Source: Kineococcus rhizosphaerae
GTDB taxonomy: Bacteria > Actinomycetota > Actinomycetes > Actinomycetales > Kineococcaceae
Direction of reading: 5' to 3'
Length of the DNA stretch: 64,000 nt
Assembly: GCF_003002055.1 (NCBI RefSeq)
Contig: NZ_PVZF01000006.1
Span: forward strand, 186,001 to 250,000
Below the pieces are notes generated by a model. It did not search any database, was not told where the DNA came from, and saw only the letters and a list, made by a program, of their open reading frames with translations. Within the stretch, counting starts at the first letter, position 1. Each line of letters opens with the position of its first letter. Position numbers and translations under genes: made by a program. Of this stretch, positions 21,949 through 62,304 are shown one piece after another.

Positions 21949-21981
21949 CCCGTCCGGGCCCGCACCACCGGCCCGGACGGG
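21949..21981. terminator. Bidirectional hairpin terminator
   Basis: Perfect 12-bp GC-rich stem (CCCGTCCGGGCC pairing with GGCCCGGACGGG) with a 9-nt loop, between the convergent ends of the DJ-1 family gene (21936) and gapB (22001). No T-run follows on either strand, as is usual in very GC-rich actinobacteria. Confidence 0.7.
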
Positions 21982-60784: not shown

Positions 60785-60809
60785 TACGAACGTGTTGCGT
60801 GGAGGGGTG

Positions 60810-61406
60810 ATGGGAACGGCAGACCCGCGGGACCCCCCGTCGCACCAGGTCGGGGCCCGCGTGCGCGCGCACCGCGCCGCGCGCGGCTGGTCCATGCGGG
60901 AACTGGCCCGGCGGGCCGGTGTCTCGCAGCCCTTCATCACCAAGCTCGAACGCGGCGACCAGCTGCCGAGCATCCCCACCCTGTACGCCCTCGCGACCGC
61001 CCTCGACGTGCCGCCGTCCGCGCTGCTGCCCACCACCCACCGGGGCGCCGGGGCCACCCCGGGCGTGTCGATGCCCTCACCCCCCACCGGCCCCGCGACC
61101 AGGTTGCTGGCCGGCGGACCCGACCGGTCGCTGCACGTCTACGAACTGACCCTGCCCCCCGCGGGCGGTGACGAGCACTGGTTCACCCACCCCGGCGAGG
61201 AGGTGGCGGTCGTCCTGGAGGGGACGGTGCACTGCGAGCGCCGCCGCGGCACCGGGCGGGTCCGGGACGCCGCCGCGGCCGGCCCCGGGGACTGCCTGGA
61301 GATCGACCCGGCCCTCCCCCACCGCTGGCGCAACCGCGGCGAGGTCCCCGCCCGGCTCCTGCTGGTCTGCGACGACCGCACCCCGGCCCACTCGGCCACC
61401 ACCTGA
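60810..61406 (+). CDS. XRE-cupin transcriptional regulator
   Basis: Regulator of 198 aa: N-terminal XRE HTH (about 12-65, ARVRAHRAARGWSMRELARR, VSQPFITKLERGDQ) and a cupin sensor (about 110-190, HWFTHPGEEVAVVLEG, GDCLEIDPALPHRWRNRG). It likely senses the substrate or product of the divergent LLM monooxygenase. ATG 60810 is chosen after GGAGGGG; GTG 60792 is an alternative start. Its stop abuts the 35-bp hairpin. Confidence 0.87.
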   Translation: MGTADPRDPPSHQVGARVRAHRAARGWSMRELARRAGVSQPFITKLERGDQLPSIPTLYALATALDVPPSALLPTTHRGAGATPGVSMPSPPTGPATRLLAGGPDRSLHVYELTLPPAGGDEHWFTHPGEEVAVVLEGTVHCERRRGTGRVRDAAAAGPGDCLEIDPALPHRWRNRGEVPARLLLVCDDRTPAHSATT

Positions 61407-61409
61407 GGA

Positions 61410-61493
61410 CCCCGTTCCCCGCGCGAGGCACACTTCGAGCCCTGCAGGATCGATCCTTCAGGGCTCGAAGTGTGCCTCGCGCGGGGAACGGGG
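61410..61493. terminator. Perfect 35-bp inverted repeat with palindromic loop between convergent genes
   Basis: The left arm (61410-61444) and right arm (61459-61493) are perfectly complementary over 35 bp; the 14-nt loop itself contains the 12-bp palindrome AGGATCGATCCT. The element starts 3 bp after one stop codon (61406) and ends one base before the other (61495). It would act as a bidirectional terminator, but is far longer than needed and may be a mobile or REP-like palindrome. Confidence 0.85.
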
Positions 61494-61494
61494 G

Positions 61495-62304
61495 TCAGAG
61501 GACCGAGAGCATCCCGCCGTCGACGTGGAGCACCTGGCCGTTGACGAACGCCGAGGCGTCGGAGGCGAAGAAGAGCAGCGCGCCGACGAGGTCCTCGACC
61601 TGACCCCACCGCCCGGCGGGCGTGCGGCCCTCGACCCAGCGGCTGAACTCGGCGTCGGCGACGAGGGCCGCGGTGAGCTCGGTGGCGAAGTACCCCGGCC
61701 CGAGGGCGTTGACCTGGATCCCCGAGCCGGCGAGGTCGGCGCACATCCCCTTCGTGAGCATCTTCAGCCCGCCCTTGGTCGCCGAGTACGGGGCGATCCC
61801 CGGGCGCACCACCTCGCTCTGCACGGACAGGACGTTGACGATCTTGCCGTGGCCGCGGTCCCGCATCCGGCGCGCGACGGACCGGGCGACGTAGAACGCG
61901 CTGGACAGGTTCACGTCGAGCATGCGCGCCCAGTCCGCGTCGGAGAACTCGGTGAACGGGGCCCGCTGCTGCATCCCGGTGTTGTTGACGAGGATCTCCA
62001 CGGGGTACCCGTCCGCCTCCAGGCCCGCGACGGCCTGCTCGACCGCGGCGGGGTCGGTGACGTCGAACGCGCGGGCGACGGTGCGGCCCGGCCCGAGCGC
62101 GGCGAGCCCGGCCGCGACCTGCTCGGCGACCTGCGGGTCGCGGCCGTTGACGACCACGGTCGCCCCGGCCCGCACCAGCCCGGAGGCCAGCGCGTGACCG
62201 ATCCCGCGGGTGGAGCCGGTGACGAGGGCGACGCGCCCGGTGACGTCGAACAGCCGCGCGGGGTCCGGGGCGGGCGGACGGGACTCCTGGGGGGCGGTGG
62301 TCAT
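61495..62304 (-). CDS. Gluconate 5-dehydrogenase-like SDR
   Basis: Classical SDR of 269 aa: TGSTRGIGHAL, NNTGMQQRAPFTEFSDADW (gluconate 5-dehydrogenase fingerprint), catalytic Ser in VLSVQSE and YSATKGG, GPGYFATELT. It reduces 5-keto-gluconate to gluconate in the IdnO role, which would follow the idonate dehydrogenase at 57598. ATG start 62304 has a CAGGAT box 6 nt upstream. Confidence 0.85.
   Translation of the reverse strand: MTTAPQESRPPAPDPARLFDVTGRVALVTGSTRGIGHALASGLVRAGATVVVNGRDPQVAEQVAAGLAALGPGRTVARAFDVTDPAAVEQAVAGLEADGYPVEILVNNTGMQQRAPFTEFSDADWARMLDVNLSSAFYVARSVARRMRDRGHGKIVNVLSVQSEVVRPGIAPYSATKGGLKMLTKGMCADLAGSGIQVNALGPGYFATELTAALVADAEFSRWVEGRTPAGRWGQVEDLVGALLFFASDASAFVNGQVLHVDGGMLSVL

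Follow-up and report, generated by a model that had tools for sequence, protein, structure and literature searches.

In the 64,000-nucleotide stretch of the Kineococcus rhizosphaerae genome analysed here (the window; the genome is called G000 below), two convergent genes meet across a gap filled by a palindrome. The left gene, at 60792..61406 on the plus strand, encodes a helix-turn-helix and cupin protein, and its TGA ends at 61406, leaving a 3-bp gap; the right gene, at 61495..62304 on the minus strand, encodes a short-chain dehydrogenase whose stop (TCA on the plus strand) starts at 61495, leaving a 1-bp gap. The palindrome itself spans 61410..61493, and 41 of the 42 pairs in its 84 bp are complementary, the sole exception being 61445/61458. 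Pairing is free of mismatches over 35 bp (61410-61444 with 61459-61493), and the 14-nt loop at 61445-61458 contains a 12-nt palindrome of its own, AGGATCGATCCT, at 61446-61457. The original prediction had claimed this perfect repeat, the palindrome within its loop and the tight fit between the two stops, and all three claims are confirmed.

Family alignments and a weight matrix identify the left arm core as the 22-mer GCGCGAGGCACACTTCGAGCCC at 61421..61442 (plus strand); the right arm core, its inverted copy, lies at 61461..61482 (minus strand), with the core centres 42 bp apart. The spacer between them, at 61443..61460, is of fixed length, 18 nt here and 17 nt in the 41-bp class, with a sequence that differs among copies and is partly self-complementary. 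Outside the cores, a left stem extension at 61410..61420 pairs with a right one at 61483..61493.

Among the 25 listed of 50 inverted repeats in the window with arms at most 60 bp apart, this one is the longest, ahead of one with 28 nt at 82%; no other palindrome in the 64 kb reaches the score limit of our palindrome scan. A 104-nt stretch including the palindrome folds as RNA at -96 kcal/mol with a z-score of -14.6, and 0 of 200 shuffles were equally stable. Hairpins near 21949 and 51632, cited in the original prediction as the window's ordinary terminators, are indeed shorter by eye and lack the core motif. No Rfam family exceeded its gathering score in the 64-kb window, which rules out a known RNA family there. 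Apart from the two arms of the element itself, the arm motif does not recur in the window at up to three mismatches.

A dispersed family of paired arms in G000

The palindrome is one member of a dispersed family, whose existence we regard as solidly established. A BLAST search with the element as query found further palindromic copies in the host genome, which comprises 5.61 Mb in 63 contigs, and the 12-mer GAGGCACACCTC occurs 120 times at up to one mismatch, against 14 times for the reversed control; 100 of these 120 places were listed, including all 27 exact ones, and every one of the 27 exact cores lies inside an element. When a strict pattern was used to look for two cores 20-50 nt apart, all 23 pairs that it matched were separated by 29 or 30 nt; the reversed control matched 0. 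To survey the genome, 51 stretches around likely sites were scanned with a weight matrix derived from the 48 arms of 24 strict pairs, of which the same-genus genome G008 contributed one. The 46 elements read in this way are made up of a 22-bp arm that is usually accompanied by its inverted copy: 36 have the arrangement +-, three ++, two --, two +--, two ++- and one ++--, and -+ was never found. Neighbouring arms are spaced, centre to centre, at 41 bp in 38 of 52 intervals and at 42 bp in 14, and the 11 of the 52 that join arms of the same orientation likewise measure 41 or 42 bp. A single other arm distance below 500 bp was seen (63 bp, to a weak hit), and three weight-matrix hits in these stretches had no partner. 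The G000 consensus arm, GCCGGAGGCACACCTCGCGCCC, is exact in 2 of 72 arms, with a mean identity to consensus of 0.888. On the 53-kb contig C18, elements at L085 (G000:C18:41047-47047) carry a compensated sub-spelling, GACGCACACGTCGG, as if in a contig-specific dialect.

These copies bear on whether the window palindrome is a product of chance or of a local inverted duplication with no family significance. In the eight relatives with a match to the dehydrogenase gene (E 1e-60 or better, 57-88% identity; orthology is not certain for all), no counterpart of the window copy was seen within 160 nt behind that gene, and the outer 11 bp of the window copy stretch its stem beyond the family unit; both observations fit such an origin. 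Set against 46 elements in the same genome, we consider it to have almost no chance of being correct, and the copy count refutes a single-copy palindrome. The helix-turn-helix/cupin gene, for its part, did not turn up in any of the eight fetched dehydrogenase loci. The original prediction was to fall if the element proved single-copy and absent or imperfect in close relatives; the family is multi-copy, yet the window copy is unseen behind the same gene in eight relatives. Its suggestion of a dispersed palindromic repeat holds, the 46 elements lying mostly behind stop codons.

By position, with genes called throughout by a simple codon-score caller, 26 of the 46 elements lie between convergent genes, 17 in tandem gaps, two in divergent gaps and one inside a called gene (L043). 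Among gaps of at least 60 bp in the window and in 20 stretches taken from G008 and G001, the baseline convergent share is 23 of 190. A stop codon lies within 30 bp of 40 of the 46 elements, and on both sides of 15. Elsewhere, the same distance to a stop was found for 11 of 15 elements in G008, 4 of 8 in G006, 7 of 10 loci in G001 (where two of the ten are inside a called gene) and 24 of 35 in the second genus described below. We surveyed 70 flanking proteins (24 + 23 + 23) of 96 flank entries, three of them from G008 loci; the families listed look like ordinary metabolism and housekeeping. A transposase or a single gene family beside the elements was rejected; none of the families listed, the 25 commonest of 39, 42 and 30, is a transposase. 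The transposase aside, the family shows what is expected of REP-like dispersed palindromes, many extragenic copies near gene 3' ends.

Ordinary bidirectional intrinsic terminators, sharing sequence through common descent of a good hairpin, would also lie behind stops and between convergent genes, and would also form a very stable, G+C-rich hairpin such as the RNA fold gives for the window palindrome. Terminators of high-G+C bacteria may lack a T-run, and by eye there is none behind either arm of the window palindrome, on either strand. However, a terminator needs no fixed spacer of 17-18 nt, no sequence-specific arms in a species-wide spelling and no 41-bp spacing of same-orientation arms, and the arm motif has no second home in the window outside the element. 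Together with the missing T-run, these features lead us to regard terminators alone as a distinctly unlikely explanation.

Arm spelling, spacers and shared sites across genomes

A covariance model trained on 38 elements, of which G000 supplied 36, gave rows in 7 of 11 same-genus genomes: 121 in G000 (both strands counted, and partly by construction), 71 in G006, 46 in G008, 30 in G001, 4 in G005, 2 in G003 and 1 in G004. There were no rows in G002, G007, G009 and G010. Four loci from G003, G004 and G005 turned out to be other hairpins or a degenerate copy, and a threshold of 20 of 24 matches, which 33 of 36 G000 elements reach, retrieved no palindrome from 200 kb each of G007 and G009. In G008, G006 and G001, where the elements read are high-ranking model hits and form part of each set, the architecture is that of G000 and the arms are spelled differently. 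The consensus arm is GCTCGAAGCACGGTTCGGGCCC in G008 (exact in 11 of 30 arms), GTGGAAAACACACTTTCCGCCC in G006 (5 of 16) and GCGGAAACAACACTTTCCGCCC in G001 (19 of 22, with 99.4% identity to consensus); G001 spacers agree no better than the outer flanks (0.384 vs 0.366).

Some local features of these genomes were also noted. Five of the 12 listed G001 elements fall within about 65 kb at roughly 3.39-3.45 Mb of G001:C1 (L176, L177), and six of the other seven lie between 2.9 and 4.6 Mb. The origin could not be located from the GC skew of 20 stretches, nor did short DnaA words turn up in the initial 20 kb of either G008 or G001. Near position 6008 of L186, in G008, two arms of G008 type flank a 55-nt loop at about 83 bp (two units) from each other, as would result from the loss of a middle arm.

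To delimit the paired unit, left/right likeness within elements was compared with arms shuffled between elements, counting how many of 5000 shuffles reached the observed value. In G000 (36 elements) the counts are 0 and 0 for the arm halves, 0 for the spacer, 400 for the near flank and 2027 for the far flank; in G008 (15 elements) they are 0 for the inner half, 0 for the spacer, 132 for the outer half, 2316 for the near flank and 2818 for the far flank. In G006 (8 elements) the spacer gives 32, the inner half 82, the outer half 309, the near flank 2664 and the far flank 46, and in G001 (11 elements) the spacer gives 497 and the flanks 3262 and 2061, the arms varying too little for comparison. 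The paired unit thus stops at the arms in G000 and G008, with the G006 far flank an exception on 8 elements. Outer flanks in G000 pair no better than expected by chance, so the extended stem of the window palindrome seems peculiar to that copy. The self-complementarity of spacers within elements (0/5000 in G000 and in G008) suggests an RNA or single-stranded DNA hairpin, or template correction within the palindrome, and points away from a pure double-strand binding site, which has no need of such pairing.

Many positions are shared between G008 and G000. Ten of the 15 G008 elements read sit where G000 also has an element; the corresponding figure is 3 of 11 for G001, with a fourth locus matched but its element elsewhere, and among the 8 G006 elements two matches are clear and two doubtful. 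Arms and spacers were compared in nine G000/G008 pairs, the array L082/L171 being dropped. Spacer likeness at matching sites is 0.677 vs 0.557 for non-matching pairs (20 of 20000 shuffles), and arm likeness is 0.697 vs 0.686 (4464 of 20000 shuffles); within species, arm likeness is 0.834 and 0.819 in the same G000/G008 set, vs 0.70 at matching sites. By these measures of likeness, the spacers at the nine shared sites retain a trace of common descent that the arms do not. The sequences indicate that the arms have changed concertedly, with places and, in part, spacers inherited. The original prediction had inferred active maintenance from the length and perfection of the repeat, a claim that is sustained in part: the fixed spacing and the greater likeness of arms within species than at matching sites support it, whereas the arms of G000 are far from uniform.

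An order-wide search with a wider model, R2 (297 genomes, stricter filters, 16 candidates scored per genome), was strong solely in the family's own genus and gave weak rows in 13 genomes belonging to other genera. Since models R1 and R2 derive from the elements themselves, their finds are biased towards the length and spelling of those elements. Inspection of the weak rows brought out a second genus, in which 14 of 21 genomes match at E 0.5 or less. Its arms are spelled GCGCGAACGTACACTTGNGGCCC, CAACGCGGGGTCACTTNNGGCCC and CCGAGGTGACACTTCGCGCCC, with an inner part, CACTT-NNN-GCCC, common to many copies. Of the 56 tabulated loci, 40 gave a spacing between CACTT centres, which is 36/37 in 33 (corresponding to 41/42 in G000), 27/28 in five and 57/58 in two. 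We call this genus Arthrobacter-like because Arthrobacter sp. StoSoilB13 carries one of its dialects: a palindrome scan of ten 50-kb stretches, two of them picked around BLAST hits, found 28 palindromes, six of them in that dialect, with a spacing of 36 in five of five measured, and a mono-shuffled control of 200 kb gave 0 palindromes. StoSoilB13 seemingly holds further dispersed palindrome families, CCCAACTNNGTCGCA... and CCGAGATGGCA... (L279, L281, L283, L284, L286, L287; L282), and L249 and L269 of the second genus contain another long palindrome, with arm GCGAACTGGCAGGTAA..., a model hit in two species. Phylum-wide, the strict pattern, with a single spelling and few close genera sampled, matched only G000 (1 of 396 genomes). 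An exact 20-mer gave two single hits with no second arm in a genome-contig collection from which records of this and near genomes are possibly absent, and searching plasmids with two further dialects yielded either no hit or two weak ones (E 0.2 and 0.8).

A putative reader of paired arms

We propose that this is a REPIN-like palindrome family whose paired arms are read by a putative sequence-specific factor and which doubles as a 3'-end hairpin, a reading to which we assign a probability of roughly 0.55. In the parts of Bertels and Rainey (2011, PMC3116915) available to us, REPINs have conserved inverted ends at a fixed distance and a spacer with compensatory changes, and distances of 71 and 110 bp are named. 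The family described here likewise places its two conserved, inverted arms a set distance apart, around a variable spacer. Compared with that account of REPINs and REP doublets, it is alike in its less conserved, compensated spacer, its extragenic position and some tandem clusters; it is unlike in its Actinomycetota host, its centres 41/42 bp apart, the absence of a Y1/RAYT match over cut-off in G000, and arms that appear to have been rewritten in place at shared sites. As that text already describes the REPIN layout, the novelty lies in arms altered in place, a transposase missing from G000 and a spacing common to two genera. REPs tagged GTAG or CGTC, in the portion of PMC3733652 at hand, are short palindromes less than 20 bp from the 3' ends of convergent or unidirectional genes, and the CGTC families there also seem to be without a dedicated transposase. 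The G000 palindromes resemble them in adjoining gene 3' ends and differ in that the arm consensus carries neither tag; by eye, GTAG and CGTC are absent from both strands of the four species consensus 22-mers. The terms 'actinobacter', 'Arthrobacter' and 'Kineococcus' do not occur in the main text of PMC3733652. The RepRanger table lists 5,512 REPs and 705 RITs in Arthrobacter livingstonensis (PMC12306157), so that Arthrobacter palindromes are in print as a count; the available text describes no paired arms, spacing, dialect or such family. A search of the published literature by titles and abstract openings, with subscription papers outside its scope, found no description of this paired-arm family.

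The elements could instead be classical REPINs, miniature mobile elements whose mover, a REP-associated tyrosine transposase (RAYT), has been lost from G000 or has diverged there too far to be recognised, their arms being alike through copying. The fixed-distance inverted ends and compensatory spacer changes (as excerpted from PMC3116915), the placement beside 3' ends (likewise from PMC3733652) and the wide differences in copy number among family-bearing genomes all suit such an element. However, searching G000 for the Pfam family Y1_Tnp yielded nothing over the cut-off (best E 1.83), whereas 10 of the 14 control genomes gave a match, 6 of them over the cut-off. Recent copying would carry the spacer along, so the nearly identical arms of G001, beside spacers no more alike than outer flanks, count against it, as do the G008 elements at G000 element sites and the untagged consensus arms. 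We consider classical REPINs unlikely, though worth keeping in view. The RAYT/REP-type element put forward in the original prediction accordingly stands as regards the doublet layout and fails as regards the transposase over cut-off and the tags.

Species dialects also recall DNA-uptake signals. DUS copies number in thousands and are mostly solitary. G000 has dozens of copies, and all its exact cores belong to elements of one spacing, none standing alone. The Neisseriaceae DUS, as far as the available text of PMC3630211 goes, have species dialects and inverted pairs linked to terminators, and the present family shares with them a species-specific spelling of one motif and inverted pairs at gene ends. 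The counts and the lack of solitary cores make an uptake-type signal very improbable.

The preferred reading of a paired-arm reader is drawn from the fixed spacing combined with free spacer sequence, which extends to same-orientation arms, and from the species-wide spelling. Each copy would, as a rule, present two inverted arms of about 22 bp, 41 or 42 bp apart, or about four helical turns, a distance that would set both arms on one face of the DNA. The putative factor, most simply a DNA-binding protein and possibly a dimer on each arm, would read the paired arms; its preference may have drifted in each lineage, with selection or arm-level conversion rewriting the arms in place. The self-complementary spacers and the position at gene ends suggest an additional hairpin role at 3' ends: once transcribed, the palindrome would give both convergent mRNAs a very stable 3' hairpin, which probably ends or caps transcripts in both directions. 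Several observations weigh against a reader. No cognate protein was found, and arms are loosely kept in G000, G008 and G006; 7 of 40 second-genus spacings are 27/28 or 57/58; 4 of 11 same-genus genomes have no row and three more have 1-4; and the spacer comparison uses 9 pairs, with fewer shared positions in G001 and G006. In its fullest form, which we rate at somewhat less than even odds, our proposal is of an undescribed type of actinomycete paired recognition site, lying behind genes, with arms four helical turns apart and a putative fast-drifting reader; its dozens of dispersed copies would be respelled in place, each species acquiring a new common spelling, while positions, spacing and partly spacers are inherited.

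Our comparison presents a clear case of short dispersed palindromes evolving in concert where no RAYT is visible; the geometry and many of the places are the same and the spelling is different. What keeps REP-like repeats alike, whether mobility, conversion or selection by a reader, becomes testable by setting arms against spacers at matching sites. The family also points to a putative factor that may act at gene ends in high-G+C Gram-positive bacteria.
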